From NCBI GenBank assembly GCA_963924555.1, contig OZ004597.1, positions 62,001 through 126,000 on the forward strand: 64,000 nucleotides of DNA, given 5' to 3'. Under the pieces are notes generated by a model. That model saw only the letters and a program-made list of their open reading frames with translations, searched no databases and had not been told where the DNA came from. The DNA comes from Crambe crambe (lineage: Eukaryota; Porifera; Demospongiae; Poecilosclerida; Crambeidae). Shown piece after piece: positions 36,212-62,665 of this stretch. Both the position numbers and the translations under genes were made by a program. Numbering within the stretch: the first letter of the stretch is position 1; each line of letters opens with the position of its first letter.

Positions 36212-39200
36212 ATGGCTCTGAGTGAACTCTCTAGTGATGGACTCAAGGAACTGGCCGGCTATCTAAAAGAGTTTCCTGCCCACGATGAAGATGCAGATCA
36301 GTACTGGCACGAACTAGCCTGCACACTTAGGAAACGTTACCCAAAAAGATTCAGCCATTATTCCCCACAGGTAACTAGTTTAATACTAATCAGTGCCTTC
36401 TCTCTGAACTTCTGATCCTGTTACTGATAGTTTCTGGTAACTGTGGGACAAAGAGGGGATAAGGCAGCCTTTGCTTTTCTCATGGACTTAAAGAAGAGTA
36501 AAGTGGATGTGGAAGAACTACTAGAATGTCTGAAAGAGATTAAGTGCCAACCAGCTATCAACTTTTTCATGCCTGGAGCTAGTAGGTGGTCCTTCCTGTG
36601 CAAATAGTAAATAAATTTTATTTTTCCAGCAAAACCGGAGCTCTTGGAATCACTGGAAAGCCAGCACCAGCTCAAATTAGATGTCGGTGACACACTGAAT
36701 CTGGTGGTAGAGGCAACCTGTAGACCAGGGCCGCTTAAATACAAGTGGATCTGCAACCAGAAAACACTACCCAATGCTTCTTCTGCTCATCTGACCATTC
36801 CCAACGTCACTACAGCTGATACAGGTGGGTTTACTCTACAGTACCAGACAATCCAGAATCATCATTTGTGTCCTTCAGGAACGTACCACTGTAAGGTGAC
36901 TAACCCAGCCATTAATGATCCTGAAAGGGCATCTACTCTCTCCCAACCTGTGGAAGTGGTGGTATACAATTCTGAAGTCAGCTCTGAGAAGACAAATGGC
37001 ATACATAGGCAAGGTGTGTGTGTGTGCATGAGTAGCTTGAAGAAGTCCTCCCTATCACTGGTTCACTACTAACTCTTACTAATTAGAAACATATGTGAAA
37101 CCACCACCTCCTGTCATTACAAAGCACCCCACCTCTATCACTGTACGACGTAACCAACCTGCCACCTTCTACTGCAAGGCTGAAGAAGGTGTGGTCTATG
37201 ATTGGTACAAAGATGGGAAACAGTTTCGAAAGGGTTGCCGGACTGGACAATTGGTGATAGACCCAGTGAAGTTAGCAGACGAAGGTCTCTACCATTGTAT
37301 CGTTTTCAATGATGGCGGCAATGAGCATTCCACTGCAGCCAGGCTTACTTTCATCAGTGAGTTATTTTTATTCTTTAAGGTGGGAAAAATAACATATAAA
37401 TTTTGATTTAGATAGTAACATTGAGATCACTCAGCAGCCATGCAGTCAGACACTGCGAGTCAACAATGAGTTGAAACTGAGCTGTACTGCACACATTCCA
37501 GGCAGGACTGACTCTCAGTTGGAGTATGAATGGTACCCTATACAGAGAAGTAAATGGTTGTAGATATATTATCATCATCATTTTCATAATGAATAATTGT
37601 ACCAGACAAACCAGCAGCACATTCTCTTGGAAAGGGCCACATATATAGTACTCGTGTTGGCCTGAAGGACCTCACAGCACAGCTCAAACTTAAATTCTGC
37701 TGCAAAGTGACAGACTTATCTGACTCAACTAACTTTGTGTATTCGGAAATCGCTACCATCAAGGTTGAGACTGGTAAGGTTTGTCTGACTGTCATAGTAT
37801 AAATGGTTGATAACAATGATGGCAGTTTGGATAGTGGAGGAGCCACGTGACTTGAATGCACAGATATCTTGTCGAGCACAGCTCAGTTGTGAAGGGAAGG
37901 GAGAAGGGAAATTAGTTTATCGCTGGATGAAATCGAACACACTTCAGGGGACTTTCAAGCCTCATGAAGTGACCACATGTGGTGTGCTGTCATTTGATAA
38001 AGTGGCTCAGAAGCATGAAGGATATTATAAGTGTCTGGTGGAACATCACAGAAACGAAATTGTACTAGACCAGGTTGATTCTAGAGTGGTATACCTAAGG
38101 CCTACTTCTCCAAACCAAGGTCAGCATCTGATGAAAACTTCCCAAGATCCATGCAATCACATTGTAGCACATTGTAGGCAAAAAAGCTTCATCATATAGC
38201 ATAGAGATAATTCGGGAACCTCGTTCTCTGGTGGTGAAGGAGGGAGCTCCTTTTCGTATGGTGTTTGAAGCTGTATCCTCTGCTCCCACCCCCATCTCTT
38301 ACCAGTGGTACTTTAGTGGCACTGCAATTCATGGAGCAACTTCCAACATTTATAAAAGGTTAGCATGCATGTACACTTAAGAATTCTTTTAGGAATGTGG
38401 TCTGACAGGGAAGCCAAAATTGAGGACTATGGGTCATACTGGTGTGAGGCAAAGGTAGAGGGTACGAGTGTTCTCAGTGAAACTGCACGCATAGAACTGG
38501 CAGATAATGAGACAGAATATCTAGGCAGAACCTGGGAACAAAGAGAAGGTATTTTCATCCTCTATTAATATTTTCTTTTAAAATACTGCTATTCACTATC
38601 CAGCGGAACGCATATTCAAGACCAATAGGGGAGAGAGATTTGGTAAGTTAGCAAATGCTACTCCCATATTCAGCTAGATATCCCCCCATGTCTTTCTTCA
38701 CCAAAGCCCGGGAAAAAGTTGCTCTGCTTATTGGCAATGCACGTTACCAACACGAGGATCTCAGAGAACTCAACACTCCAGAAAGTGACATCAAAGAATT
38801 GGAAAAAGTGTTGAAGGCACCACCATTTAACTTTAAGGTCTTCTCTCTGGTGGACTTGACCTACAGCGAAATGCAGTCAGCACTACTAAAATTGCTCTAT
38901 GAACTGTTGACTGTGAGCGGGATATATGCCCTTTTTTATTTCTCTGGGCATGGATTCCAGAGCAATATCCATAACAGTTACTTGGTCCCTGTGGACTCTG
39001 AACCTTGCCGTGAGCATAGCTTTCATGTGGAGGACATCATGAAGAGAATGCAGGGAACATACTCCAGAGCATTTCTCATCTTAGATGCTTGCCAAGTTGT
39101 GTGAGTCACTCAATTAGTAAGTAAGACATGTGCTTATGTTTTGTCAACAGTGATGAAAAAAGTCAAGACCAAAATTTATCACTGAGCAGCATGGAAAATT

Positions 39201-40150
39201 TCTCCAATGTGCTTAAAATTCTATCATGGTTAGTCCCTTTAATTCCACGAGTGTATGACTTGAAGTGCACATTGACGTAGCACTGGGAATACAACAGCTC
39301 CTGATGCCTCAGAGCCATCCACATCAGTATTCAACAAAGCCTTCATTAATGTGATCAAAAGGGGCAATAAAATATCAGAGATGGGACATGATATCCATGA
39401 AGGTAGAAAATGTTGATCACTGACTGACTGACTGACTGATAATGCAATCCGTTAATGCCTCTTCCCTCTCTGTTCCAGAGTTAAGAAATGCTGGAGTTCC
39501 ACAAACACCTCATATCGAAGGACTCATTGCTGACCGTGACATCACCCTGAGGGATTCCATCATGAGCGATAACTTGAAGGATGAAGATGAAGAGAGATTG
39601 TATAACATTCCCAAGATTTGCCAAAAGGCCCACAGTCAGTCACAACACTCTTTACCAGCTAACACTAGATAGCTGTTGATTCCTCTCCTACACATCCAGA
39701 GGCACCTGATGGAGTCATACTCAAAGGAGCCAACATGGGAGACCTCAACACATATGCAGAGTTGGAGCTGACTTTCTCTTCTGTGCTGACCAACATCCTC
39801 CATGTGGAGGCCCACCTCTACCAGCATCAGGATAAAACCACTTCAGCTGCTATCAAATTCAATGAAGGATTTTTGGTATTATTATTTGATCTATGCATGG
39901 GTTTTATGCAAACTTATCTTTTTGTTGACAGCGTGAGCAAGGGGTATCTGGCTCACAGACTGACCTACACATCTATAAGCCAAATGAGTGTGCTCATGCT
40001 TGCATTGTGATCAAGGGACTCCAGAAACTAAAAGCACCTCTCAAGTTGTTGATTGATGTCCAAATGTGTGTGAGTGGAGAAGACAGAAAGGTTAATCTAA
40101 CCCACTCCCTAAAGGACCTCCCATACATTGCCACTATTTGCAATAGTTAA
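36212..40150 (+). CDS. MALT1: MALT1-like paracaspase, complete copy
   Basis: Exons 1 and 2 encode a MALT1-type death domain (ELAGYLKEF, then DKAAFAFLMDLKKSKVDVEE). Five Ig-like modules follow, each with the W and YxC signature: about 36630-37010 (YKWICNQ, TYHCKV), 37088-37355 (YDWYKDG, LYHCIVF), 37413-37775, 37827-38119 (YRWMKS, YYKCLVE) and 38190-38549 (YQWYFSG, SYWCEAK). The caspase-like exon is 38674-39100, with KVALLIGNARYQ, catalytic His in FYFSGHGFQ and Cys in LILDACQVV. Downstream exons resemble the post-protease region and third Ig of human MALT1, ending at TAA 40148-40150. MALT1 cleaves after arginine and scaffolds NF-kB signalling with BCL10. Human MALT1 has two Ig domains before the protease. 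The 3' end is 34 bp from the aminotransferase. Confidence 0.9.
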
Positions 40151-41859
40151 AAGTCTGTGTTATATGATTATTATAGCTTTTGTCTCAACTGTTTGTGAGT
40201 TTAATGAGAGAAATATCGAGGGCTTGAAGTAGTCTGTCTGCATCTTTGAGGGTAAAAACAAGTGGAGGCTTTAGTTTGATGACATTACTGCATAAACCAT
40301 CGCGAGAGATAAGTATCTTGTGTTCCAGCAGCATCCTGCCAGCATAATCATTGAAAGATGTACAGAATTCCATTATGTAGTTACTACTCACCAATGGACC
40401 AGGTTTTTTGACAGTTGGGGGTCTGGCTCCCTACTTTCTCTGTCCTTCACTATTTCAACACCAATAAACAGCCCATGACCACTGAATAATGTGTCACGGT
40501 TACTGTCATGTGAATAGAACTAATTCAATAGTTACCGGACTTCCCCCATACATAGATGCTTGTCCATCAGAACCTCCAGATGCTGCCTGATGTAACCACC
40601 AACTTCCTTGGCATTCTCCTGGAGCTTTTCCTCTTCAATGGTGGACAGCACAGCCTCTGCCACAGCCAGTGACACTGGGTCACTCCAGAACTAAACATAC
40701 ATTCATAGGCCTATAACCGTGAGCTTGCACATTTAGCAAGAATTACTAACCTGAGCCATGACAGCTGAGTCAACTTTCTCCATGTATTTACTAGCTATGG
40801 CTGCTGTAGTGACCACACCTGATACTGGGTGACCGTTCCCCATGGGCTTACCAATTGTCACCAAGTCATAGCCCATCTGGTAGTGGGTTAAGCTGCATAC
40901 TCAAACACTTGAGAGAGGTAGTTGTCAGGCAGCTGAACTTGACCAGCACATCCAGGAAAGCTCTCTGCCATAAAACAAGCCACCTAATATGACACCAACT
41001 CAAATTATACCAAATACACAACAATGACCCTTAAAAAATCAATTATTATTCTAAACGCACCTTTTTCCCCTGAGCATGGATTTTATCGATGATGGCTCCA
41101 ACTTCTTTGGCATACTTTGGACCTGCATCACTCCCCCTGTACTTTCCCCGATAACTATCAGGAAGAGCACACTGGAACCGAAAAGTACAACCTAGTCAAA
41201 TCACACAACACCCACCCATCCACAAGACCTACCACCCATCCATTAGGATTGGGTTTAATGACAGGGTCAGTCCCAACCACTTGCTGCTGATCTTGTAGGT
41301 GCTGAGTCCCATAAGGGGTTTAGTGTGGCCATGGTAGGCTCCATCTAGCACCAAGATCTCGCTTCCATCGCTCACAGTTTCACAGATAGACAAAGCCAAA
41401 TCATTAGCCTCCGAGCTACAATGATTAAATACCAGACTTAAGTCCCTTCATATTATGCCACCAATATTATAAAGCGGCACTTAGTGACATGGAATGCCAC
41501 AGACGTACCCTGAGGAGGTGAAGAAAACATGGCCCATGGAGCGAGGGAAGTGAGAGAGCAAGTGTTTAGTGTAGGTGGAGAGGTTAGGGTGATTAGGGGA
41601 AAGGCTCGTGTTCAGCTTGGACATTTGTGATGAGAATGCTTCCACCACACGTGGATGACAGTGTCCCACTGTGTGTGTATGTACGTCCATTGATGTAATC
41701 GCTACCTGTGCTCACAAACCTTGTGTCACATTGTTTATGCAGTCCAAGAAGGCCTGGTCATTTTCATCATAGAGGAATTGACCACGCCCATATACTATCT
41801 TCAATGGGTGGACATCAGAGTAGTGGACACTTAGAGATGGACTGCAAATGTTAAACGAA

Positions 41860-42311
41860 GTGGCTATTCGTCCGGCAGCCGGATACTATTTTCAGAGCTA
41901 TTCGTCCGGCAGTCTAAATAGGCCAGCGAAGCTGGCCTATGTATTATAAAAGCTCCTGCAAGGGAGCGAGCGCAGCGAGCGTTAGGTGCATGGGACGTAC
42001 TATTCACGCACTGTTGTGACTCCAAGGCTAGGCAACACTCGCCCAGCTTGCAGTGCAGGCCCAAAGGGCTCCCTAAGGCCACCAGAGAGTAACAAGTATA
42101 AATATCACTCTCGAACTGAGTTTTGCAGCGTTGCCACCGTAGCGTATTGGTTAGTGCCGTGTGCTTTGGAACGTCCGATCGTGGGTTCGATCCCGGAATT
42201 GCTGCTTCTTTTTCTTCTTTCAGATTTTCAATCTTTGAAAATTTTCTAAGTGCCAGCACTGCCGGAAGAATAGCTCTGAAAATAGTATCCGGCTGCCGGA
42301 CGAATAGCCAC
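41860..42311. mobile_element. 452 bp TIR element with tRNA-like promoter boxes
   Basis: Inverted ends of about 53 bp begin GTGGCTATTCGTCCGGCAGC at both termini. The flanks AATGTTAAAC (left) and AATATTAAAC (right) look like a target-site duplication of 8-10 bp, compatible with hAT-like insertion. The homologous site in copy 2 (near 62533) is empty, which proves it is a discrete insertion. It carries no protein-coding capacity. It sits in intron 1 of the aminotransferase copy 1. Confidence 0.85.
42133..42204 (+). other. tRNA-like sequence with Pol III A and B boxes
   Basis: TAGCGTATTGG at 42140-42150 fits an A box, and GGTTCGATCCC at 42184-42194 is a near-perfect B box. The A-to-B spacing is typical of a tRNA. 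A five-T run at 42209-42213 could end Pol III transcription. The acceptor and anticodon stems pair poorly, so this is a tRNA-derived SINE-like head rather than a working tRNA gene. Confidence 0.65.
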
Positions 42312-42806
42312 AGCGAATATTAAACAGCTGGAACTCATACCCGCATAAACTAATAATATAATGCTTTACGATATAAATTTCTTCCTGAGCTGGATTACTT
42401 CTTCCTTACTCATGCAAGAGCAACTGCTCTGTCTTGCTGGGAGATGCCGACATACAACCTCAAGTTAACCACGCCCACTTCGTGGCAATGGATCGGTCCC
42501 TTACCAACCAAGGCAGCATGCAGTGGATAGAGTGAGGTTCCAGAATGGACTGGAAATGATTAATTACATCCGCCTTGCGGTGTTCCGTATATTATGGTAA
42601 TACTTACCGGATATTGTATTCTGGGCCGGCTGTTTCCATCAATTAATTAACTGTCTACAACCAAATATATATCCCACCTAATACATTTACTCCCATAGAG
42701 AAAAGTGCTCTTACTGTCATAAATTCCCTCCCTTAGGGTAAAATGCGTTATGACTCATAACGCACTGTTCCCCAGGCTATGAATAACAATATTTTTAGGT
42801 TTTCTG

Positions 42807-43380
42807 AAGCTGACTGTTGGAAAAAGATGATAATGAAGATAATCCAGGGGCGGATCCAAGGGAGGGGCATTGGGGGCAGATGCCCCCCCCCTTTATAGTA
42901 TAGCTTGACTAGCTAACCTTCACTCCTGCAGCCAGCGGTGCAAATTTGCGGTAGCTAACTAGCTAACCTTTGTTCCTGCAACTAGGCACGGTGTAAGTTC
43001 CAGTAGCTTAACTAGCTAACCTTCGCTGCAGCCAGGTTTGTTTTATAAAGCACATCCTATTAAAATGCTAATTAAAAGTGGGCATGACCGGTCTTTGAAA
43101 ATTTTCTCCGCGCTTACGCGCGGATAAAAATGCCCCCTCCTTTGGAAATCCCTGGATCCGCCCCTGTAATCTATGAGATAATGATCAGATAACATTGTCA
43201 TTAACTAGCTATTACTAAAGAGTTATTTCTGTCTCTGTATTATGTTGGTAGTTTATAGCTGACTGTTGGAAGAAGATGATTATGAAGTTAATGATCAGTC
43301 TATAATATTGTCATTAACTATTACTAAGGAATCTATTTCTGTCTCTGGGTAGTTTATAGCTGATTGTTGGAAAATGAAGA
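42807..43380 (+). repeat. Diverged tandem repeat around AGCTGACTGTTGGAA
   Basis: The motif AGCTGACTGTTGGAAAAAG, an AATGATCAG core and a CATTAACTATTACTAA segment recur from about 42807, 43256 and 43357. This makes about two and a half units, the first of which is split by the hAT-like MITE. Confidence 0.6.
42845..43166. mobile_element. hAT-like MITE (322 bp)
   Basis: Termini are CAGGGGCGGATCCAAGG and its inverted partner CCCTGGATCCGCCCCTG. The CAGGGGCGGATCC end is typical of nonautonomous hAT elements. There is no coding capacity. Inside are three copies of an ACTAGCTAACCTT motif. A clean 8 bp target duplication is not visible. Confidence 0.7.
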
Positions 43381-43613
43381 AGTCATCTGGTGCTGCATGG
43401 GTCATCATAGCTTTTTTTTTTTTTTTTTTGCAATTTTCCACAAGAAGAAATTATTTCTAAGGCCCATTGATATTTTTTTTTGGCGTCATACCTTCCGCTA
43501 GCTTAGCAAACACAAAACGTGGGTGGAGGAACTCGTTAATAGCTGGGTGTGGTGGGCATGGGAGGAGCCTCGTAGTTCGTAGTCTTGCTTGAGAGCAGGA
43601 GGCTCTGTACTGT
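43167..43613. other. Noncoding left flank of the RecQ element
   Basis: About 450 bp holds the end of the tandem repeat, a T run at 43412-43430 and unremarkable sequence up to the 4 bp target duplication CTGT at 43610-43613. Confidence 0.5.
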
Positions 43614-43769
43614 TAGTCTCGCGCGCCCGCCCCTCCAAAATAAAATCGGAGGGTCTGGTGTCACGCGTATATCAAACTCGTTCTCTCCTCCAGATTCTGG
43701 AGGACATACTTTGAGCTGTATAGCTTATGTAGCGGGTGTGGTTTCATACGTAAAGCGTGGGTGGGAATA

Positions 43770-45183
43770 ATGCTTATGAAAGTTAGCGCGCTATTATTAA
43801 GCTTGAGTCAGGATGTCATGCAGGCTACCATAGCCAAGGTTGCTGATTCTTTCGGATTTAAACTAAAACTTGAACAAGAAAGAAGTCTACAAAAGTTTAT
43901 TGCTGGTAATGATATATTCATATCTCTCCCTACTGGCTATGGAAAGTCTCTTTGCTACATCTTATTGCCTCCTATTTTTGATATTATAAGAAAGGTTGAT
44001 AAGAAATCAATTGTTTTAGTTGTGTCTCCATTGATAGCCTTAATGAAGGATCAAGTTGCCACTGTAACAGCAATGGGACTATCTTCTACATACGTTACTG
44101 ATAAGCAATCGACTACTTCTTCAGTTAAAGCAGGAATAAAGAATGGGGATTATCAGATAATTTTTGTCAGTCCAGAAGCTCTTTTTTTGTCTACAGAGTG
44201 GCGAAATATCCTTTCTTCCGATATCTACATATCAAATTTGTCATAGACGAAGCTCACTGCGTCAAAAAATGGTAAGTTGATGAGGCCCCCTCCAACTACA
44301 ACTCAAATTAAAGATAAGACTATAATATTTTTTATTTAGGGGAGAGAAGTTCAGAACTGAATTTTCTCACCTTGATGAGGTACGCAGTATCATACCCAGT
44401 ACAGTTAGGGTTATGGCATTGACTGCCACGGCAACGAAAACTACAAGAAATTTCATAATAAAAAGTTTATGCATGCAAGCACCTGAAATTACATATATTC
44501 CTCCAGCTAAGGAGAACTTGTTATATTCTGTCCTGGATAAACCCAAAGGTGGAATTTCTGAAGCTTTCAAATCTATTGTAGACAGACTGAAATCTGAAAG
44601 AAGTAAAATGGGACGTATAATAATATTTTGCAAAACGTACAACAATGTAATATCTATATATCAATTTTTTAGACAGAAATTAGGAGAGTACTTTACAGAG
44701 CCAAAGGGCTCTCCAAATTATGTGATAAATAGAGTCATTGATATATATACACATTGCACACATGAGACAGTCAAAAATAAGATAATTGCACAGTTCACCA
44801 AACCATCAGTACTGAGAGTTGTCATAGCAACCATAGCATTTGGTATGGGTATCAACTGCCCAGATGTTCGGCATGTGATACATTGGGGTGTACCTGCTGA
44901 TGCTGAAATGTATGTTCAGGAAACTGGAAGGGCAGGTAGGGATGGGAAATTGGCATGTGCTACTATACTGAAGACATCATCTGATTTAGACAAACGTTAC
45001 ACTACTCAGCACATGATTGACTATTGTACTAACAAGTCGCTGAAATGCCGGAGGATAGTACTATTTCAAGATTTTTATGATTGTACTCTGACAGGCACTG
45101 GATGCAAATGTTGTGATATTTGCCAGAAGTCCTGCAACTGTGAACAATGTGATTTGAACATAAATTCATTTAGCATTATGTAG
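43770..45183 (+). pseudogene. Transposon-borne RecQ-like helicase, frameshifted
   Basis: The N-terminal part (43770 to about 44235) has FKLKLEQERSLQKF and Walker A in LPTGYGKSLCY, then VVSPLIALMKDQV. The next motif, VIDEAHCVKKW, is in another frame, so a single-base frameshift lies around 44225-44240. A splice GG|TAAG-like donor near 44272 and acceptor TTTAG at 44340 lead into the second part (to 45183) with ALTATATK, IAFGMGINCPDVRHVIHWG and QETGRAGRDG, all SF2/RecQ motifs, and a Cys-rich zinc-binding tail (CKCCDICQKSCNCEQC). A helicase would assist transposon DNA processing. The host BLM/RecQ gene is excluded because the whole unit sits between TIRs. Confidence 0.85.
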
Positions 45184-45293
45184 TTATTATTCACCTGGTT
45201 ATTACTGTATATGTTGTGTATTTACATGTACAATCATAATTAATTTGTAGACAGCCACTTACACATACATACTGTACAAGTCAACAATAACAA

Positions 45294-48200
45294 TTACATA
45301 GTGTGTTTGCTGAAGTTTTTGAAAACCCAATCCATTAGCTCCTCTTTCGATAACTTTCTTATTAAATTGGTTTTTAATTTTGCGAAAGACTCATGAGCAT
45401 GTGATGTATCAAATATATTGGCATTCAACAATTGTTGTATTATCACCTTCAAGTCCTTAGACATTGATTTTTGGGAGTGCATACCACTAATTGATGGTAC
45501 ACCAGCTTGATAATCAAAGTTAACCAGGCTTTTGCTGAAAGAACCCACACTTTTTCCTGCCCGGACAATTGCTTTCTCAGTCTTGTTGGCTCCCAGTCCG
45601 TTGATCGACATTTTAACCATCCGATTCAAATGCTCCATATGGAGATCACAGCTGATGTTGTGTCCAGGCAAGTCTCCGTGAGTATTGATAAAGCGGCACC
45701 ATTTGAGTTGCTCTGCGAGGTTGGGAGGAAGTGTGATAAAATACTGGGTTAGGAGTGTTAGTGCCTCCAAAGCATAGTTAGTATGACCCGTAGCTTTAAA
45801 AATGAGCAAAAAATATTTCCAAATCATTATGATGCGATCACCATCTCCTTCCCTCACTGCATCCTTGAAGTCAAGATAGAGTAGTCCAAGACTCAGGACT
45901 TCACAACTGTAGTCACATATGGTACCACTTGCTGTACTGGTGGGCTGATTAAAGTCAGTCTTCAGGTCTACACGTAAGTCTATAATGGAGGATGACAAGT
46001 CAGTAAGAATAGATTTTCTTACAGAGTCTTCCTGCATCCACGAGTCTGAAGGTACATGAGAGGCATGGGGTATATCGTTAAGAGAGGACATACCAAGGAA
46101 TTTCATGGCCGTCACAATTACATATCCGGTCACCACAATTTCTAAAAAGTCCTCATTTGCATTAACATTACTCTTAACCTCAGTGGTTACGTTTCTTCGA
46201 TTTATGAGGTTTCTCAGCTGGTACAAAGTCCCCCTCTCCATTACTGACTTCGAATTATAGAGGCGTTTCCATATTACCTATTGATAGTGAGCCATATTAT
46301 AAATTAATTAATTCTTAATTGAGCCTCAACATGCCATGTACTAATTGAGAGTCTAACACATCATGGTCAAATTAATTTGAGCCAACATGCTGGTTGTGCA
46401 CAATATCTGTGCAGGTTCAAACATGTATATGGCTCAAAATTCCAACAACACCATATTCACATGCTGACATTAGCACAATATGTGCAAATTCAAACATGCA
46501 GAGTATCAGGTTCAAGCATGCATTCTTTTACCTCCATGAAACAAACTTTGGCATGCCAATCCTCTGCCACTGGCAAAATGCCACCCAGTGTGTCCTTTAT
46601 AAGTTCAGATGTAGACCGAATTAACTGGGCCCCCCTAGCCCGGGCCACAGATAAATAGTCACCACCAACTAATGTTGTTAGGAAGCACTTGTCTGGTGTT
46701 ATCCCTGTCTCAGGAATAAACTTCTCACAGTTCACGGAGGGAACATAAGTATGGTAGTGTTCAAGGATCTCAGTCATGTCCTCATAGTTAGTTTCACTCT
46801 TGAGCAATACTCCAAGAGGGACCTGTACAAGTAATTTGTATAAAAAAGAAAGCACTTCTTCTTATAACACTTACTATTTCTGACTCCTTAGACATTTCAT
46901 TAGAGAACTTGTGAGGAATGTGGCTTGGTACAAGTCCTTTGTAATCAGAGTTGAAAAATGGTAGATGTTCTACTAGCAAGCGGGACAAGAGTATTGTAAA
47001 GTCCTGCTTCAATGCTTTATAGTCCTCTTCACCAGGGATAACATCAAATATGTTAACTTCTGTTCGAATTTCACCTGACAAATTGGAAAAAGCTATGCGA
47101 TCTTTTACTGCAAAGGATTGCACATAATGTAAGGATCTTGTTTGATAGTCACTTCGCATATACCTGGGGTTGACATTTTTATCTATGTTATCGAACACAA
47201 TTTTGTACCCAGCATTGAGGGATAGGGGTTCCCTGATATTAACATCAGCTTCTTTTTCACAACTCTGTGATACACTCAGTGAACCGTCATAACTGGAAGA
47301 GTTATCAGATGAGTTACTGCTGGAACTGTCAGATGTAGTGCTGCTGTTGAAATCCAGGTCATGACCTACACTTTCTAAAGAAGCTGCTGATGATGACATT
47401 GATGAATTAGTTTCTTCATCCACATAGAGAGTTAGAGATGACTGAAGAAGTGGTGGTGATAATGGTGATGGAGAAGATTCAACATCAGTATCAATGAGGT
47501 TTATCATGGTCGTCTCTTCGATGGTGTTGGTCACCTACATGCATGAATGCCAGGATAATGTATACTTAGAGACTGCAATGCCGGCTATACCTTTTTCAAG
47601 CTCAACTGTCTTGCTGCATTTTCCTGCCATTCTTTCACTTTCATATCGAAACCTTTACCCAACTTATCCACCAACTTGATTGTAGTACTGTGAGACATGC
47701 AGATACCCATCTTTTGTAGACGCTGATATACCTAACCAATTATTAGGGGTGTTATTATACATTTAGCTCCCAACACAAACTTACTTGTTTTGCTGAATGC
47801 CCTGCATAGAGGATCAAGGAGGTCAGTCGCTGAATTAGTGAACACGATTCTCTCTTGTTTTTGCAAATTAAACCAGCAATCACCACTATTATAAAATTAA
47901 CATTTAATCTAGGAGTTTTAGTCTGCAAGCAACATTTCAGAAGGGAGAGTAATGTAGGTGCCTTGTGTTTCAATTCATTGATGACATTGCTGACTTCAAA
48001 ATCTTCCAAGGATTGTTTAGTCTTACTCTTCAAAATAGAATTGAATTTATTGGAGCACATTGCTTCAATCTCCTTCTTCAAAATATGCCCAATGGTTTTG
48101 ACCATAGCTTCTTTTGTTGTTATGTTTTGTAAACATTTTGTAGCAAAGGATCGATAGTTCTTTCTTATGAGTGGTTTGCAAATTTTTCTCCTAGCTGGTG

Positions 48201-48803
48201 TCACTTTGAAGGATTTGGGCTTAGAGTCATAATGAATAGTAGCCTATTATAGACAGATGCTAAAGCTATAGTAGTGGGGAATAACACAGTAGCTTACTGT
48301 TAGTGATGGTGAGCATGAAGTTACAGAGTCCGAAGGAATAAATGCTGAAGGAAAAGTATCCAAAGATGCAGAGCCTGACTCTGAATGAAATGATCCAGAT
48401 CCTGAAGGAAGAGAGCCCAAAGAAGTACTGGGTGATGAAAGAGCTGCAGAGCCAAATAAAACAGATTGATACATAGAAGAAGAAACCCTTATGCCTAGAA
48501 CTCACCAGTTGTCGGCAAAAGTGGAATTGCTTTTTTAATATTGCTTTCTAGCTCTCCATAAACACTGTGGTATCTTTGTATCAATCGCACACAAGGTCTG
48601 CAAATGAATCCTTTGCTAATTTTTGCAGCATCTACTTCAAGGTCTTGCATTTTCTTTATGAAAGTCAGTAATGTCTGCAGCACTGTGGACATAGAAGAAC
48701 CACAGAGGAGCCTCCTTTGTTTTCTCTCAGCCTTACTAGAGACATCTCGCCCACAGCTACAGCAATTCTCCATCACTCCTACAGCTAAATCTTTCCTGCT
48801 CAC
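45294..48803 (-). CDS. DUF6589-type protein, candidate transposase
   Basis: About seven exons run from ATG at 48801-48803. The first has a zinc-binding N-terminus (CCSCGRDVSSK, then FICRPCVRL). Middle exons include a helical region (SFATKCLQNITTKEAMVKTI) and a serine-rich linker. The conserved core runs YHTYVPSVNCEKF, VGGDYLSVARARGAQLIRS, LPVAEDWHAKVCFMEV spliced in frame to IWKRLYNSKSVMERGTL, YQLRNLINRRNV, LEALTLLTQYF, WCRFINTHGDLPG and NISCDLHMEHLNRMVK. This order is that of DUF6589 proteins, common in coral and sponge genomes. D in VGGD, D in EDWHAK and E in HMEHLNR are possible catalytic acids (inference). No stop or frameshift was found, so it may be intact. Confidence 0.75.
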
Positions 48804-48958
48804 GGTCGGCTATTAATAGCGCGCAAGTTTAGTAATCAATTTAATGATATTCATACATTCTATCAGGCGCGCGTGCGATACTAATGAAGAACGAGTTTGA
48901 TATACGCGTGACACCAGACCCTCCGATTTTATTTTGGAGGGGCGGGCGCGCGAGACTA

Positions 48959-49814
48959 CTGTACTGTAGAGTTGGCGTCTGAACAACGGCATATCACAGG
49001 ACAGGGACAAGCCATGGCAGGAGTTTCGTTTTGTTTCGTAACTAAGGGGTAGCTACGCTCTAGCTACAGACCGACCAATGAAATCGTGCGCCCTGGGGAT
49101 ATATAACAGTTAGAACACGGTAGTCCTGGTGATTATGGCCAAATAAACAACCTTATCCTCGGGCTGCGCCCTCGGATTCGGTTGTTTATTGGCCATAATC
49201 ACCAGACTACCGTGTTCTAACTATTACATGTACCCCGAATGGATAAAAACAATACCATGCAACACTGCAAACTTTATATGAACTGTTTATATTACAGTAT
49301 GAGCTGGATTGGTTAAACTTGGTCCTAGAAAATTACGCAAAGCAGGTATACTATTTGACAAAGAAAGGTGTAGTAGTTAGTAACAATGTAGTAGAAAGTT
49401 GATATGTATCTTTTAAAACAATTTACTAACATGTACTTCAAGTCCTCAACCACATTAACTATGGATGATAGAACTACTTCAGGAGATAAAATTACACAAA
49501 GTATTTATATGCAATTTTAACTGCTAGAGCACACTTTAACTCGAGTTTTGCTCTGATAATAATCCCAGGGTCTTGGCATCTTGTAGTATAGTCTCCCTGG
49601 CAGAGTTCAGCCTCTTCATAGCCACTTACAAGCTTGTACGGTTAACCACAAAGTGATCTTTCCTGTTCATGGAGATACAGCTGCAGCGCATCAAAATAGG
49701 CGCAACAGATATCACACGACCGGAAGTGCTTGTTAATATTAATTTAATAGGCGTTTCCAGTCCATGTAGGAACCTATATAGGCCTAGTCTATGGTTGGTG
49801 GCACCTGAAAATAT
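48959..49814. other. Noncoding sequence right of the RecQ element
   Basis: Up to 49228 this is still copy-1-specific sequence, including the 115 bp hairpin. From 49229 it matches copy 2 (62887-63455) almost base for base. Copy 1 has an extra ATAGGCCTAGTCT-like stretch near 49775-49795. No gene is seen. Confidence 0.5.
49108..49222. repeat. 115 bp near-perfect hairpin (foldback element)
   Basis: AGTTAGAACACGGTAGTC at 49108-49125 and its reverse complement GACTACCGTGTTCTAACT at 49205-49222 are the outer ends of arms of about 43 bp around a GC-rich loop (CTCGGGCTGCGCCCTCGG). It ends 6 bp from the point where copy 1 and copy 2 rejoin. Confidence 0.85.
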
Positions 49815-51320: not shown

Positions 51321-51323
<3 letters not shown>

Positions 51324-52711: not shown

Positions 52712-53092
52712 ATTATTGTTGAAGTTAGCTCCTAGCCTAGTAAGGGATCTTCATGTAAAAGTGACTGCAATAGCCTACTGTAATCTTCACTTTGTATGCA
52801 ATTTGCAGTGATTTATCTTATAATTGCCGAATATGGCGGCCATTTTGTTATTCTGCAGGTGCGCTAGGAATATTTTCCACTTTGTAACTGCTATTGTGAA
52901 TAATAATGCAATTTTCAGTCATTTATCACAAGATAATTGCTGAATATGGCGGCCATTTTATTATTCTGCGAGTACGCTAAGAATTTGTCGGGGGCTCCTA
53001 GGCTAATATTGTTTAGTATCACAAAATGAACTCTTGTGCAAAAAATGGCACTTTTGTCCGCCCGGTAACACTAAGCAACCTGACTAATAGCG

Positions 53093-53190
53093 ATGGGTCA
53101 GAGTTTATCAGAGCCCAAGACGGAGAAAGAAACCGTTGCATATGAGAGCACTGAATTTACAGTTGCATGCTCTGGAATGCAAGGCTGGAG
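53093..53190 (+). pseudogene. Orphan first exon of a PP2C (PPM1) phosphatase
   Basis: MGQSLSEPKTEKETVAYES then FTVACSGMQGWR matches the start of PPM1-type phosphatases (MGxxLSxP and MQGWR just before the metal-binding SMEDAH). The next required motif, MEDAH, is not found in the following 4 kb. The frame soon hits TAA, and only a weak donor (C|GTATCC) is present. The exon begins 8 bp after the end of the 3.3 kb transposon. It is either a fragment cut off by rearrangement or an exon whose partners are elsewhere. Confidence 0.5.
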
Positions 53191-55002
53191 ACCTCGTATC
53201 CTTTAATTCTACTGACTTGTTCTGTTAATAGCTAAAACTGTACCCTCAAATCGTTGACCCTAACCTGTATTGATATTCATAGATGCTGGGGTCACGCACG
53301 CGCAAACAGTGGATACCAGGCCCTTATTTTAATAAGGCCTGGGTACGAGGCTAAGTTAGCTAAGTGATTATATGAACCTTCAAGAATCATGATCACAATT
53401 ATGGGGTGCCGTTTATTTCAAAATTCAGTCGAGAAGGAATTTACACAGGTGGTGGACATTTATCAACACAGGGGGTGGGAATTTACTAAATCTCAACCAT
53501 GCTCGTACACAGGTGGTGTACACGGGTGGTGGACATTTACTAAATCTCAATCATACCATACTCATACACATTAGCATCCTTGTGATAAGTGGGTTAAAGG
53601 ATAAAGTGGGCGTGGTGATCCCACGCACAAGCACACCCGGGCCACTCAAAATTCTGTCGCCCCGGCCCCGCGAAAAAAATAAGTGGGCTGGCTAGCTCGT
53701 GAGCTTGAGACAGCTAGCTGTCCATGCAGCGCAGTTGCCATTAGCTAAAGAAATCAACTCGGGTGCTCTCCTTGACAAGGAAATATCGTAAGTACAATCA
53801 TCTAGTGAAGCTACCTGATTAGCTCGCTACAATCATTTCCCCGGAAATGATAAACCTATATCACTCCTATGTTGAGCCTAATCTAGTCCCGGCCCCACCC
53901 TTATTTTACAAGTGAGCTTCAGTTTGCTAAAAAAAGTCGGGGTGTTTCTGTAACATGATCCATATACTGAGTTAAATTTGGCGGTGTATTAAATTTGACT
54001 GTGTGGCAGTCCATCTTTGAACTGCCAATAATAATGTCCACCAATATCTCATGGAACAATTAGCTGCGCGAAAGACTACATAATAGCTAGCTAGCTCCGT
54101 TTCCAGCTGTTTTGCGATCGTGATGGTTCTTTGAAGAAGCAGGCAGCTGACATCAATCTCGGAATGTGGCCACATTATCATCTGATATTACTGCAACGGC
54201 ATAATTATGGGTCCTCCGAGTTTCTGACAGCTGAATAACTCCCCACACGTTTTTTGATTTGATAGCCTAGCCTCGAACACAACTAGTTAAATGAAACTCC
54301 ATGGCTTGCTCCTCCTGGCTTGCTCCTAGCTTGCTTGGCGCTCGACCGATGGCATGTGCACGCGGTATAAGAATGTGTGCGCGAGTGCGCGATAATGTGC
54401 TGCAGCCAATAATAATGTTCGCCAAAAGCTTTCCGTGGTACAAACGCCAAATAAAACACCCGCCAAAATTAACTCATATACGGTAGCTATCAACTTAAAT
54501 GGACGGCCAATAATAAGTAGGGGTGTTGGAAGGAGAGGTACTGAATGCAAGGACAAGGGGGAATGAAAATGGTTGAAATGAAACGGTGTACCATCATGGA
54601 ATGGAATTTATAGAGTGAAATTAATTTGGCCTAACTCCGTATGTAGTATTATTCCATTTGCTGCTGTAACATTAAATTTTAAGTCTTTCTTTTTAACATT
54701 AAAAATAAAATCTTGATTAGAGCCTTTTTTTTTTCAAGGAAAGTGCAATTCAAACTGATCCATTCCTCATTCAACTGTTTCATTCCAATGTTCCACTAAA
54801 ATTAATAATTAAGAAAATACCCAAGCAAGGATAAAGGTTGCACAGTCCATGCATATGCTCCATGCATGTACACACCACAAATGCTACTAATAACACTGTG
54901 ATGGCATCCTAATAGTCTTTGTGCTATTTATATGCAGGGTGTGTTGGGCTCGAATATTAATTTTTTTGGCACACCATTTGACACTACTGAGTGTTTCTGT
55001 GA
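53191..55002. other. 1.8 kb without a recognisable gene
   Basis: Imperfect direct repeats of ACAGGTGGTGGACATTTA and TTACTAAATCTCAACCAT occur at about 53443-53560. The rest is AT-rich with short chance frames, a T run at 54727-54735 and no clear TIR pair. Confidence 0.45.
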
Positions 55003-55450: not shown

Positions 55451-56444
55451 CCCACGCAATTAACGAAAACCACAGTCATTTCATAAGCAGTACATAATTT
55501 ATATGCTTACCCATGAATCATGGGTAAGGTCACCAAATGTGTATATACGGGTCACCAGACGTATATACGGATGGCTATGTGTGGTTCAAAAAATAGAGAG
55601 TGAACTTCAGTCAAGTAACCCCTTACCCATCACCAACTACAAGCTAATCATTCCTATATACTTCACTCCCACGATTCCTACTTCACTCCCATGACAGACC
55701 AAGATGAGATATGAAATATGAGATATATAGGTGTGGTTATTGGGCTAGGAGTGATAGGAATAGTAATAATGTAGCTAAACTTTATGGCTATCCCTACTTC
55801 ACTTTTTATTTTGAAAAAAAAAACTTGCGTTCATTTATAAGTGGATTCTACAGTTGGTTCCAGCCAGGCCGCTACATATGCTTGTAGGAAGTTGTAATGT
55901 GAACCTGTGATACTTACCATGAAGCACTTAGAGAAGCACTTAGATAAGCCTATCAGCCTACCAGAAATACAAGCAACTAAGATAAGCCAATGACTTTGAC
56001 AAACCACTGTAGAATTCAATTAAACTTGCCTATCATCTTAAGAAATGTTGGCCAAAAATGTTACTAGGCTAGTCTGCCCATGTGTAGACAAGGCGTTGAA
56101 TAATGCCATTGAATCGTAATGGACCAATCAGATTGCTTGAATCCATGTATATAGTCTCTGATAATTATGCTTTAAAGTGATAACTCTGAAGTTGTTATGC
56201 ATGCCCTATGTCACAGTGCATACTGTTTATTTGACCTTTGACCCCACGAATGAAACATGCCCATAACACTTGGCAACAAACAACTAGCATTTTGTCATAG
56301 AGACGCTAGGCTTATAGAATTTGCTGGACTAACTAGCTAATCCTTGTTAGCTAATGGAGTATGTGGTTAGCTTTGAGCCATATACTGAAAAGTAATCCTC
56401 ACATATTCATTGTCATCTGAGCATACCCATTATGAATATCAACT
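55451..56444. other. Noncoding stretch with foldback-element fragment
   Basis: At about 55580-55690 lies a partial copy of the foldback repeat found at 57527-57721 (shared AGAGAGTGAACTTCAGTCAA and CCCCTTACCCATCACCAAC). Just before it, variants of GTCACCAAATGTGTATATAC and GTCACCAGACGTATATACGG occur at 55527-55571. No gene is recognised in the remainder. Confidence 0.5.
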
Positions 56445-56687
56445 GGGTGTCTGAATTCACTGGACTGGATTACTGGAATGTGACTACTGGACTGACCTTT
56501 CACCTTAAACTTGATACATTATTGCCACTTAAAATTACTGGGCAGTAATTATTACTGGTATAGCTACATTAAAGTGGTTATGATGTCATAAAGAATAATT
56601 TTGTCAGTCCAGTAGTCCAGTAGTCCAGTCCAGTAATCCAGTCCAGTAATCCAGTCCAGTAGTCTAGTCGAGTGAATTCAGACACCC
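56445..56687. mobile_element. 243 bp MITE with 9 bp target duplication (MULE-like)
   Basis: The ends GGGTGTCTGAATTCACT and AGTGAATTCAGACACCC are inverted partners, extended by degenerate CCAGTCCAGTAATCC-type tandem motifs. Both flanks are ATATCAACT, a 9 bp target duplication, which is the hallmark of Mutator-like elements. Confidence 0.85.
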
Positions 56688-57010
56688 ATATCAACTAGAT
56701 GTACAACGTTCAAAAGGCAGGAGAGCAAAGCAACAATATGGTTATCAAATGCCCAAACTCTTGAGTCTCCACTGGGTTGTCTCTGCTGGCAAAGAATCCA
56801 TGGATTGACCCCATTTACCAATGCAGTGCTTTGTACAAGCTCATTAAACAGTATTATAATTATGTACATACTGGAATCTCAAATTTCCATTGACAAGCCC
56901 CAAATGGCATAGCCACAGCTAGTGAGTGTGATTATTCTTCTGTGTCTCTGTCCACAGATAAGCTTCTATCATTAGAATTTGCTGGCTCGTGGAAGTGTTA
57001 TTGTTTCTGA
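56688..57010 (+). promoter_or_regulatory. Upstream region of the CARD exon
   Basis: These 323 bp lie between the MITE and the CARD start codon. They must hold the promoter and leader if the CARD exon is the first exon. No specific motif is named. Confidence 0.3.
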
Positions 57011-57368
57011 ATGGCTGAGTCCAAGGAGTATTCCACTATCATCAATTGTGATAGGAAGCTGACAGTTGCTTTCAAATCTGACAGAGATATAGCACAGTTT
57101 CTCCTTCAGCAAGGATTCATCACACGTGAAGATTACAGTGAAGTTAACAATCCAAAATCAAATCTGACAAGCAGTGAAAAGGCTAGTAAGCTAGTGACTG
57201 CAATCACAGATCGAGTTGAACTCAACCCTCGCAATTACCACAAAGTAGTTAATCATTTACATCAGAATATTACAAGATATGGAGACATCATTGAAATTCT
57301 GGATCAAGAATATCACAGAAAAACAGATCCCGAAGTACCTAACCCTTCTACTACAAACCTTCAATCAG
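57011..57368 (+). CDS. CARD-domain exon, likely first exon of a CARD-Ig chimera
   Basis: ATG at 57011 opens MAESKEYSTI, then a death-fold of about 90 residues: DIAQFLLQQGFITREDYSEV, NNPKSNLTSSEKASKLVTAI, LNPRNYHKVVNHLHQN, YGDIIEIL. The LxxxGFITxxDYxEVxNP and SxxEKAxKLV patterns are typical of CARDs. The frame continues to a stop at 57439, but a consensus donor (TCAG|GTATGT) ends the exon at 57368 in phase 1. The next usable acceptor (TTTTTCCAG, 57845) opens the first Ig exon of paracaspase copy 2 with the two nucleotides needed, making an in-frame fusion. CARDs mediate assembly of signalling filaments, as in BCL10. Alternatively this is an independent CARD gene whose downstream exons were displaced. 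Confidence 0.72.
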
Positions 57369-57526
57369 GTATGTTTAACCACATTATGTTGTATTTCATT
57401 ATAGTGCTCAATAACCATAATAATTATAGGAACTTTTGATACATTTTTTCCCAGTTGTTGTATTACGATAACGGGGAAAATATTTATTCTAAATAAAAAG
57501 AGAAGTAGGGATTGCTGTGTGCGGTT

Positions 57527-57721
57527 CAAAAAAGTTCAGCAACAAGAGAGTGAACTTCAGTCAAGTAACCCCTTACCCATCACCAACTACAAGCCAACTA
57601 TTCCTACTTCACTCCCATAATGAGATATAAAGGGAGTGAAGTAGGAATAGTTACCCCGTAGTTGGTGATGAGTAAGGGGTTACTTGACTGAAGTTCACTC
57701 TCTTGTTGCTGAACTTTTTTG
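57527..57721. repeat. 195 bp foldback repeat at the duplication edge
   Basis: CAAAAAAGTTCAGCAACAAG at the left and CTTGTTGCTGAACTTTTTTG at the right are perfect inverted ends. The arms extend nearly to the middle (CTATTCCTACTTCACTCCC / GGGAGTGAAGTAGGAATAG). It ends 14 bp before the first base homologous to copy 1 (57736). A related fragment is at about 55580-55690. Confidence 0.9.
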
Positions 57722-57735
57722 ACAAAAAATTTTTT

Positions 57736-60700
57736 ACTAGAATGTCTGAAAGAGATTAAGTGCCAACCAGCTATCAATTTTTTCATGCCTGGAGCTAGTA
57801 GGTGGTCCTTCCTGGCCAAATAGTAAATAAATTTTATTTTTCCAGCGAAACCGGAGCTCTTGGAATCACAGGAAAGCCAGCACCAGCTCAAATTAGATGT
57901 CGGAGACACACTGAATCTGACGGTAGAGGCAACCTGTAGACCAGGGCCACTTAAATACAAGTGGATCTGCAACCAGAAAACACTACCCAATGCTTCTTCT
58001 GCTCACCTGACCATTCCCAACGTCACTACAGCTGATACAGGTGGGTTTACTCTACAGTACCAGACAATCCAGAATCATCATTTGTGTCCTTCAGGAACGT
58101 ACCACTGTAAGGTGACTAACCCAGCCATTAACGATCCTGAAAGGGCATCTACTCTCTCCCAACCTGTGGAAGTTGTGGTGTACAACTCTGAAGTCAGCTC
58201 TGAGAAGACAAATGGCATACATAGGCAAGGTGTGTGTGTGCATGAGTAGCTTGAAGAAGTCTTCCCTGTCACTAGTTCACTACTAATTAGAAACATATGT
58301 GAAACCACCACCTCCTGTCATTACAAAGCACCCCACCTCCATCACTGTACGACGTAACCAACCTGCCACCTTCTACTGCAAGGCTGAAGAAGGTGTGGTC
58401 TATGATTGGTACAAAGATGGGAAACAGTTTCGAAAGGGTTGCCGGACTGGACAATTGGTGATAGACCCAGTGAAGTTAGCAGACGAAGGTCTCTACCATT
58501 GTATCGTTTTCAATGATGGCGGCAATGAGCATTCCACTGCAGCCAGGCTTACTTTCATCAGTGAGTTATTTTTATTCTTTAAGGTGGGAAAAATAACATA
58601 TAAATTTTGATTTAGATAGTAACATTGAGATCACTCAGCAGCCATGCAGTCAGACACTGCGAGTCAACAATGAGTTGAAACTGAGCTGTACTGCACACAT
58701 TCCAGGCAGGACTGACTCTCAGTTGGAGTATGAATGGTACCCTATACAGAGAAGTAAATGGTTGTAGATATATTATCATCATCATTTTCATAATGAATAA
58801 TTGTACCAGACAAACCAGCAGCACATTCTCTTGGAAAGGGCCACATATATAGTACTCGTGTTGGCCTGAAGGACCTCACAGCACAGCTCAAACTTAAATT
58901 CTGCTGCAAAGTGACAGACTTATCTGACTCAACTAACTTTGTGTATTCGGAAATCGCTACCATCAAGGTTGAGACTGGTAAGGTTTGTCTGACTGTCATA
59001 GTATAAATGGTTGATAACAATGATGGCAGTTTGGATAGTGGAGGAGCCACGTGACTTGAATGCACAGATATCTTGTCGAGCACAGCTCAGTTGTGAAGGG
59101 AAGGGAGAAGGGAAATTAGTTTATCGCTGGATGAAATCGAACACACTTCAGGGGACTTTCAAGCCTCATGAAGTGACCACATGTGGTGTGCTGTCATTTG
59201 ATAAAGTGGCTCAGAAGCATGAAGGATATTATAAGTGTCTGGTGGAACATCACAGAAACGAAATTGTACTAGACCAGGTTGATTCTAGAGTGGTATACCT
59301 AAGGCCTACTTCTCCAAACCAAGGTCAGCATCTGATGAAAACTTCCCAAGATCCATGCAATCACATTGTAGCACATTGTAGGCAAAAAAGCTTCATCATA
59401 TAGCATAGAGATAATTCGGGAACCTCGTTCTCTGGTGGTGAAGGAGGGAGCTCCTTTTCGTATGGTGTTTGAAGCTGTATCCTCTGCTCCCACCCCCATC
59501 TCTTACCAGTGGTACTTTAGTGGCACTGCAATTCATGGAGCAACTTCCAACATTTATAAAAGGTTAGCATGCATGTACACTTAAGAATTCTTTTAGGAAT
59601 GTGGTCTGACAGGGAAGCCAAAATTGAGGACTATGGGTCATACTGGTGTGAGGCAAAGGTAGAGGGTACGAGTGTTCTCAGTGAAACTGCACGCATAGAA
59701 CTGGCAGATAATGAGACAGAATATCTAGGCAGAACCTGGGAACAAAGAGAAGGTATTTCTCATCTTAGATGCTTGCCAAGTTGTGTGAGTCACTCAATTA
59801 GTAAGTAAGACATGTGCTTATGTTTTGTCAACAGTGATGAAAAAAGTCAAGACCAAAATTTATCACTGAGCAGCATGGAAAATTTCTCCAATGTGCTTAA
59901 AATTCTATCATGGTTAGTCCCTTTAATTCCACGAGTGTATGACTTGAAGTGCACATTGACGTAGCACTGGGAATACAACAGCTCCTGATGCCTCAGAGCC
60001 ATCCACATCAGTATTCAACAAAGCCTTCATTAATGTGATCAAAAGGGGCAATAAAATATCAGAGATGGGACATGATATCCATGAAGGTAGAAAATGTTGA
60101 TCACTGACTGACTGACTGACTGATAATGCAATCCGTTAATGCCTCTTCCCTCTCTGTTCCAGAGTTAAGAAATGCTGGAGTTCCACAAACACCTCATATC
60201 GAAGGACTCATTGCTGACCGTGACATCACCCTGAGGGATTCCATCATGAGCGATAACTTGAAGGATGAAGATGAAGAGAGATTGTATAACATTCCCAAGA
60301 TTTGCCAAAAGGCCCACAGTCAGTCACAACACTCTTTACCAGCTAACACTAGATAGCTGTTGATTCCTCTCCTACACATCCAGAGGCACCTGATGGAGTC
60401 ATACTCAAAGGAGCCAACATGGGAGACCTCAACACATATGCAGAGTTGGAGCTGACTTTCTCTTCTGTGCTGACCAACATCCTCCATGTGGAGGCCCACC
60501 TCTACCAGCATCAGGATAAAACCACTTCAGCTGCTATCAAATTCAATGAAGGATTTTTGGTATTATTATTTGATCTATGCATGGGTTTTATGCAAACTTA
60601 TCTTTTTGTTGACAGCGTGAGCAAGGGGTATCTGGCTCACAGACTGACCTACACATCTATAAGCCAAATGAGTGTGCTCATGCTTGCATTGTGATCAAGG

Positions 60701-60834
60701 GACTCCAGAAACTAAAAGCACCTCTCAAGTTGTTGATTGATGTCCAAATGTGTGTGAGTGGAGAAGACAGAAAGGTTAATCTAACCCACTCCCTAAAGGA
60801 CCTCCCATACATTGCCACTATTTGCAATAGTTAA
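57736..60834 (+). pseudogene. MALT1: MALT1-like paracaspase, second copy without protease
   Basis: Homology to copy 1 begins inside death-domain exon 2 (ACTAGAATGTCTGAAAGAG at 57736, equal to 36520), so the original start and most of the death domain are absent. The five Ig modules (57846 to about 59753) are preserved. The donor after the fifth Ig is followed directly by ATTTCTCATCTTAGATGC. Bases 38551-39070 of copy 1 are missing, removing the linker exon and the protease exon except its last 30 bases. The catalytic His is gone. Splicing from that donor to the next exon (TGATGAAAAAAG) shifts the frame and stops within about 12 codons. Downstream exons remain as sequence. As an independent gene it is broken; as the 3' part of a CARD-Ig gene its Ig exons could be used. 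Confidence 0.82.
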
Positions 60835-60868
60835 AAGTCTGTGTTATATGATTATTATAGCTTTTGTC

Positions 60869-62665
60869 TCAACTGTTTGTGAGTTTAATGAGAGAAATAT
60901 CGAGGGCTTGAAGTAGTCTGTCTGCATCTTTGAGGGTAAAAACAAGTGGAGGCTTTAGTTTGATGACATTACTGCATAAACCATCGCGAGAGATAAGTAT
61001 CTTGTGTTCCAGCAGCATCCTGCCAGCATAATCATTGAAAGATGTACAGAATTCCATTATGTAGTTACTACTCACCAATGGACCAGGTTTTTTGACAGTT
61101 GGGGGTCTGGCTCCCTACTTTCTCTGTCCTTCACTATTTCAACACCAATAAACAGCCCATGACCACTGAATAATGTGTCACGGTTACTGTCATGTGAATA
61201 GAACTAATTCAATAGTTACCGGACTTCCCCCATACATAGATGCTTGTCCATCAGAACCTCCAGATGCTGCCTGATGTAACCACCAACTTCCTTGGCATTC
61301 TCCTGGAGCTTTTCCTCTTCAATGGTGGACAGCACAGCCTCTGCCACAGCCAGTGACACTGGGTCACTCCAGAACTAAACATACATTCATAGGCCTATAA
61401 CCGTGAGCTTGCACATTTAGCAAGAATTACTAACCTGAGCCATGACAGCTGAGTCAACTTTCTCCATGTATTTACTAGCTATGGCTGCTGTAGTGACCAC
61501 ACCTGATACTGGGTGACCGTTCCCCATGGGCTTACCAATTGTCACCAAGTCATAGCCCATCTGGTAGTGGGTTAAGCTGCATACTCAAACACTTGAGAGA
61601 GGTAGTTGTCAGGCAGCTGAACTTGACCAGCACATCCAGGAAAGCTCTCTGCCATAAAACAAGCCACCTAATATGACACCAACTCAAATTATACCAAATA
61701 CACAACAATGACCCTTAAAAAATCAATTATTATTCTAAACGCACCTTTTTCCCCTGAGCATGGATTTTATCGATGATGGCTCCAACTTCTTTGGCATACT
61801 TTGGACCTGCATCACTCCCCCTGTACTTTCCCCGATAACTATCAGGAAGAGCACACTGGAACCGAAAAGTACAACCTAGTCAAATCACACAACACCCACC
61901 CATCCACAAGACCTACCACCCATCCATTAGGATTGGGTTTAATGACAGGGTCAGTCCCAACCACTTGCTGCCTGATCTTGTAGGTGCTGAGTCCCATAAG
62001 GGGTTTAGTGTGGCCATGGTAGGCTCCATCTAGCACCAAGATCTCGCTTCCATCGCTCACAGTTTCACAGATAGACAAAGCCAAATCATTAGCCTCCGAG
62101 CTACAATGATTAAATACCAGACTTAAGTCCCTTCATATTATGCCACCAATATTATAAAGCGGCACTTAGTGACATGGAATGCCACAGACGTACCCTGAGG
62201 AGGTGAAGAAAACATGGCCCATGGAGCGAGGGAAGTGAGAGAGCAAGTGTTTAGTGTAGGTGGAGAGGTTAGGGTGATTAGGGGAAAGGCTCGTGTTCAG
62301 CTTGGACATTTGTGATGAGAATGCTTCCACCACACGTGGATGACAGTGTCCCACTGTGTGTGTATGTACGTCCATTGATGTAATCGCTACCTGTACTCAC
62401 AAACCTTGTGTCACATTGTTTATGCAGTCCAAGAAGGCCTGGTCATTTTCATCATAGAGGAATTGACCACGCCCATATACTATCTTCAATGGGTGGACAT
62501 CAGAGTAGTGGACACTTAGAGATGGACTGCAAATATTAAACAGCTGGAACTCATACCCGCATAAACTAATAATATAATGCTTTACGATATAAATTTCTTC
62601 CTGAGCTGGATTACTTCTTCCTTACTCAAGAGCAACTGCTCTGTCTTGCTGGGAGATGCCGACAT
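60869..62665 (-). pseudogene. PHYKPL: PHYKPL/ETNPPL-type PLP lyase, copy 2
   Basis: The start at 62663-62665 gives MSASPSKTEQLLLSKEEV in frame with QLRKKFIS, so the N-terminus here is intact. The exon with LDGAYHGHTKPLMG and YKIRQQVVGTDP is also in frame, unlike copy 1. The segment that should carry the PLP-binding DEVQ motif is missing exactly as in copy 1, leaving an in-frame stop after QVFEYAA. The lesion therefore predates the separation of the copies. The enzyme could not bind its cofactor normally. The 3' end is 34 bp from the end of the paracaspase remnant. Confidence 0.78.

Follow-up and report, generated by a model that had tools for sequence, protein, structure and literature searches.

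A MALT1-like paracaspase gene is present three times in tandem (copies A, B and C) in the sponge Crambe crambe. Judging from the gene models, the key gene of this array appears to be copy C, a predicted fusion of an NLR-type CARD exon to the Ig array and protease of the paracaspase, rather than copy B, on which the preliminary description had centered. The CARD capture had been thought to have created a protease-free CARD-Ig protein, a view not sustained by the data, as an identical CARD exon heads the protease-intact copy C.

The anatomy of the array can be read directly in the DNA. The copies were located by self-BLAST of the window (the whole stretch of 64,000 nucleotides analyzed, C20:62001-126000, part of a 6.34-Mb contig of the 143-Mb genome) plus neighboring contig sequence. 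Positions are given in window numbering, and the parts of the array are on its forward (+) strand. Copy C lies beyond the window end, 13.9 kb past copy B measured from CARD to CARD. The left boundary of the duplicated unit was placed by BLAST at 36519 in A, at 57735 in B (start junction 57734..57735) and at the window-equivalent position 71649 in C (C20:133649, in locus L010). At copy A, which retains the original left end of the paracaspase gene, the left part of the unit (36519..42675) was recovered as three self-BLAST pieces, and BLAST adjacency marked in its downstream flank a 6.5-kb insertion (42676..49227) that is not in the B unit. The open reading frames of this insertion, probably a mobile element, match DEAD/Helicase_C, DUF6589 and, weakly, zf-AD in Pfam. 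The block 49919-59759 is repeated at 63819-73672 with 99.56% identity. To the right of copy C there are aminotransferase-like frames (weak Pfam matches of 15 and 20 bits) and then a PP2C gene (Pfam, 42.6 bits). A fragment left in the duplicated unit (53078..53271) is a 98% match to the stretch just before this gene (window-equivalent 77373-77565), which was taken by eye as the first PP2C exon, the PP2C Pfam match lying 0.5 kb beyond it; the same stretch is also kept as a fragment in other units of the array. A 176-bp stretch of the neighboring aminotransferase-like gene was found at copy C (about 6980-7155 of L010) and was missing near 40866 (A) and 61550 (B); the complete neighbor gene possibly stands on the C side only.

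Two further observations concern other genes. A long CT-type simple repeat (window about 31950-32290), with several open frames that read as Ser-Leu repeats, lies upstream of calpain frames (Peptidase_C2, 32945-33271). Among seven papain-family stretches read, two (L053 and L054) have Ser in the usual position of the catalytic Cys or beside it, as in silicateins; the best PDB match of L053 was silicatein alpha (E 2.1e-13), with cathepsin L-like entries close behind (5.5e-12). Together with the expansion of CARD-NACHT genes, this fits a demosponge.

Three database open reading frames are identical to parts of the array: P0001 to the CARD frame, P0058 to copy A and P0059 to copy C, the latter two at Ig5. 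Each is assigned to a 40,511-bp contig, and the equal length was taken to mean one contig of another assembly. This supports the linkage of A, CARD and C, while it does not prove the array, since the same individual or reads may have been used. An 82-aa open reading frame at the junction occurs in its A and C versions in three database matches, from which the B-specific version is absent, although clustering at 90% identity could hide it; copy B is thus less secure than the A-CARD-C linkage.

Copy A (36212..40150) is a complete MALT1-like paracaspase gene model of 17 exons and 1012 aa, open throughout and with GT-AG introns. It is laid out as an N-terminal domain (two exons), an Ig array (five Ig-like units according to the exon layout), a p20/p10 protease and a C-terminal segment. 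Human MALT1, in which the catalytic residues are H415/C464 (PMC6125328), is matched by the protease part with a best E of 1.6e-19. In this alignment the GHGF and LDAC motifs of copy A fall opposite GHGY and LDMC of the human protein, and the same residues occur in copy C, so the catalytic His and Cys are present. Against Pfam Ig_3, the Ig1 and Ig2 frames scored above the cut-off, Ig4 reached 29.4 (cut-off 30) and Ig5 19.6, and the Ig3b frame alone gave no match; multi-Ig PDB entries matched across the array, one of them being Contactin-2, which covered residues 266-391. The C-terminal, MALT1-type Ig (Ig3) of A and C scored 12.8 bits with PF18703 (cut-off 26.4). When a death domain was sought in the N-terminal domain, neither Pfam nor PDB sequences gave a match.

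Other paracaspases were met in the course of the analysis. A second one in the same genome (L059, C19:3872501-3877500; frames 1-180, 486-956, 3252-3587 and 3819-4067) is closer to human MALT1 (E 1.9e-29 with two frames joined by eye, each a Pfam Peptidase_C14 match); an Ig frame above the Pfam cut-off precedes it by 2.3 kb in the same orientation, their belonging to a single gene being presumptive. In the database, P0043 and P0060 (138,934-bp contig) represent a relative that has diverged from the array paracaspase (93% identity to A in p20) and whose Ig5 frame is nearer to C than to A.

The model of copy C comprises 16 open exons encoding 1027 aa, with AG/GT at every internal boundary and with both catalytic motifs. 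Counted from Ig1 onward, 14 nonsynonymous and 19 synonymous changes separate A from C, along with one codon (pN/pS 0.21); over the aligned gene, 35 of 2789 exon positions and 15 of 824 intron positions are divergent. Under neutral evolution of one copy after the split, the probability of 14 or fewer nonsynonymous changes would be 0.002 to 0.01, a range that follows the constraint assumed for the other copy. In the p20 exon, C shows two amino-acid changes and one codon fewer than A. At both changed residues the relative P0043 agrees with A and not with C, while P0044 shares the cysteine of C; the codon missing in C is present in P0043 and absent from 14 more distant relatives aligned. The polarity of the A-C changes in p20 is therefore mixed, and the differences between the two copies may be in part older than the duplication.

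The CARD exon (57011..57368) has an identical copy at C20:132925-133282, heading copy C (0 differences in 358 bp). The score of this exon against Pfam PF00619 was 16.1 bits, under the gathering score of 23.9, and the search of PDB sequences with the CARD family profile yielded no CARD match. The identity of the domain rests thus on the predicted structure, a six-helix CARD/death-fold bundle (36 of the 41 other CARD matches entered the structure alignment, five being left out). Across the family, Pfam CARD matched 12 of 18 members at E ≤ 1 (best 7.8e-4). These matches were outnumbered by those of FumaraseC_C (16 of 18, best E 9.4e-4) and SHOCT_2 (15 of 18), which were dismissed as chance because the predicted fold points to CARD.

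The exon belongs to a large exon family in the genome. Its nearest paralog, 81% identical, is on contig C10, where it opens the coding sequence and a NACHT exon follows (a CARD-NACHT, NLR-type gene). In the array gene no NACHT is met downstream, the next exons being the Ig domains of the paracaspase. The segment homologous to the NLR-type locus (56925..57378; 83% DNA identity to C10:6818085-6818530) contains 86 bp 5′ of the ATG, among them an intron acceptor that puts the first exon base at 56958, and then the CARD exon and about 10 bp of the intron downstream. The homology ends 86 bp upstream of the ATG, and no promoter or 5′ exon for the CARD was identified; among 153 other pairs of CARD paralogs the shared upstream homology was equally short (median 2 bp). 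In a scripted check of 20 CARD exons from the genome, the two of the array among them, 18 showed a phase-1 GGT[AG] donor. The two lacking it were L016 and L022; L016 was read as having a GC donor at the same place and a phase-1 acceptor before its NACHT-bearing exon. The nearest CARD-NACHT paralog (L047, reverse strand) displays an apparent GC donor, CAATCAG/GCATGT, versus the GTATGT of the array copies. Genome-wide, the adjacency of CARD and NACHT was modest: with 103 of 232 NACHT candidates scored, a same-strand NACHT was present within 12 kb downstream of 28 of 84 CARD matches and upstream of 14 of 84. Relative to the nearest paralog, the CARD shows a dN/dS of 0.31, a constraint dating mostly from the period when it served in an NLR-type gene. 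The nearest paralog points to an NLR-type gene as the probable source of the CARD, and not to a BCL10-like one; the idea that it represents a BCL10-type partner domain does not agree with the position of that paralog before a NACHT exon.

Concerning the junction with the Ig array, the layout initially described was confirmed, as was the phase compatibility of both sides. The CARD exon ends in a phase-1 GTATGT donor, followed by a 477-bp intron and, in copy B, by the phase-1 acceptor of the Ig1 exon at 57846, and the models are open. With position weight matrices built from the other introns of copy A, these were the top-scoring sites of the CARD-Ig1 interval (donor 9.4, best of 33; acceptor 10.1, best of 41). 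In copy C the corresponding predicted junction would join C20:133282 to 133760. The loss of the original N-terminal start was also correct for the most part, except that 57 bp of the second exon of the N-terminal domain are kept in phase (57741..57797); with scores of 6.1 for its acceptor and likewise for its donor, this remnant might serve as an optional mini-exon. The intron contains a foldback repeat element (57468..57722), recognized by its matches elsewhere in the genome: at least 28 other places with 93-97% identity, from 40 scored of 3160 candidates, most of them matching on the opposite strand too.

Copy B retains eight Ig-array exons in an open model (57846..59752), in which Ig1 and Ig2 pass the Pfam Ig_3 cut-off and Ig4 narrowly misses it. 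At informative sites it is C-like in 18 of 18 cases from 57778 to 58340 and then A-like in 46 of 47 from 58521 to 62740, which places the switch within the Ig2 exon (58340..58521) and marks copy B as a C-A recombinant that arose by unequal crossover, or else as an assembly joint with the same outline. As initially claimed, it has lost the protease: a 520-bp deletion (junction 59754..59755) removed the linker exon and 397 of the 427 bp of the p20 exon, so that no paracaspase domain is left. The remaining p10 and C-terminal exons (59835..60834) were checked for frame. Splicing of Ig5 to the first of them leads to a stop after 11 residues, and to the second after 24, while the third (p10c) is in frame. 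Being a crossover product with a deletion, and with its simplest splicing out of frame, the protease-free decoy is probably a by-product. At most, copy B would yield a truncated CARD-Ig protein, probably scarce because the predicted stop comes several exons before the gene end. Exon shuffling after duplication had been suggested as its origin; the shuffling is indeed tied to the duplication, while copy B itself is a later product of unequal crossover and deletion.

The explanation we favor, with moderate confidence, is that the tandem MALT1-like array acquired, at a duplication joint, the exon with which the coding sequence of an NLR-type gene begins. This would have placed the CARD ahead of a paracaspase gene with most of its original N-terminal domain gone, the ancestor of copy C. 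Since each side kept its native phase-1 splice site, the donor of the CARD exon and the acceptor of Ig1, the gene most likely encodes, in 1027 aa, the CARD, the Ig array, p20/p10 and the C-terminal segment. A later unequal crossover of C with A within Ig2 would then have given rise to copy B, which also carries the 520-bp deletion taking most of p20. If the fusion is spliced as predicted and expressed, its CARD could self-assemble, or NLR-type CARDs could seed the assembly, possibly including the many related CARDs of the genome; the protease domains would thereby be brought together, and the protease activated, without a separate BCL10 adaptor.

Other readings of the locus deserve consideration. 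A functional role of copy B as a CARD-Ig adaptor or decoy devoid of protease seems very unlikely to us: from the CARD through the Ig array its frame is open and the phases agree, and the splice from Ig5 to p10c would be in frame, but the use of either preceding exon leads to an early stop, for which mRNA decay would normally be expected, and the recombinant nature of the copy and the absence of its junction frame from the database matches mentioned above also count against it. The same recombinant pattern suits the notion that copy B arose as an artefact of assembly, when two haplotypes of an A-C locus were merged across the repeat that A and C share. Heterozygosity is frequent in sponge genomes, copy B is exactly C on the left and A on the right, the long block recurs at 99.56% identity, and the 40,511-bp contig displays the frames of CARD, A and C, the B version not being among the matches listed. 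On the other hand, the switch falls within a 182-bp interval between informative sites, and the deletion proper to B and its lack of the 6.5-kb insertion would need a distinct allele of A, which makes the artefact decidedly improbable.

The remaining two readings, both of which we judge unlikely, concern the fusion itself. The CARD exon could be stranded, with transcripts ending in the intron or its repeat and giving nothing or, by read-through, a CARD-only protein of 142 aa. The frame stays open for 23 codons beyond the donor, a repeat element sits in the intron and no NACHT exon follows; against this, the donor and the acceptor are the strongest of the interval, and the nearest NLR paralog also reaches its natural partner exon by a phase-1 splice. 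Finally, B and C could both be unexpressed pseudogenes carried along in the array. The lack of an identified promoter and the changes of C in p20, with its missing codon, fit this, whereas the 16 open exons of C with intact splice boundaries and the A-C pN/pS of 0.21 argue against it.

Fusions of this kind have partial counterparts. In API2(cIAP2)-MALT1 of MALT lymphoma, the API2 partner is N-terminal. As in the array, part of another signaling protein is joined to MALT1; according to PMC6125328, MALT1 monomers are inactive and need dimerization, and the fusion is constitutively protease-active. That fusion is a somatic translocation of human lymphoma with an IAP partner, while the array fusion is germline, has an NLR-type CARD and would have a putative activity. 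The HLH-paracaspase fusions (Staal et al. 2018, PMC5978004, section 7) also join an oligomerizing domain to a paracaspase, which activates it artificially; they are engineered, and the array fusion is apparently natural. In the CARD-CC/BCL10/MALT1 system, CARD assembly is likewise proposed to drive paracaspase dimerization, but CARD and paracaspase are separate proteins, in contrast to the single predicted polypeptide of the array, with a CARD of NLR-type origin. In the NLRC genes of sponges (CARD-NACHT-LRR), such as those of Dysidea avara (PMC12909245), the CARD precedes NACHT as in the nearest paralog; in the array an Ig-paracaspase gene takes the place of the NACHT part. With type 1 paracaspases (MALT1/PCASP1), copies A and C share Ig-like domains N-terminal to the paracaspase domain, and the array differs from them in having more Ig-like units before the protease and an N-terminal domain that is mostly absent from B and C and, in A, devoid of a death-domain sequence match. 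Type 1 paracaspases have not been found outside planulozoans, those of Porifera being described as a protease domain alone (PMC5978004, section 3); the models of A and C, with Ig and paracaspase in one frame, and the C19 paracaspase with Ig upstream are in conflict with this statement on sponges.

Exon capture is a known process, of which the CARD-Ig-paracaspase architecture would be a novel variation; among the matches listed from open-licence literature (titles and abstract openings), none described a CARD-paracaspase fusion. A further-reaching proposal, possible though doubtful, is that copy C is an expressed germline CARD-Ig-paracaspase coupling NLR CARD assemblies directly to a MALT1-like protease with no need of BCL10 as an adaptor. 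It would then parallel API2-MALT1 as a naturally formed fusion, and copy B, lacking the protease, would compete with it. If the fusion is expressed, germline evolution would have done the same as lymphoma translocations and laboratory fusions, by putting a new oligomerizing domain on a paracaspase, and there would be a direct link from NLR to paracaspase in an early-branching animal.
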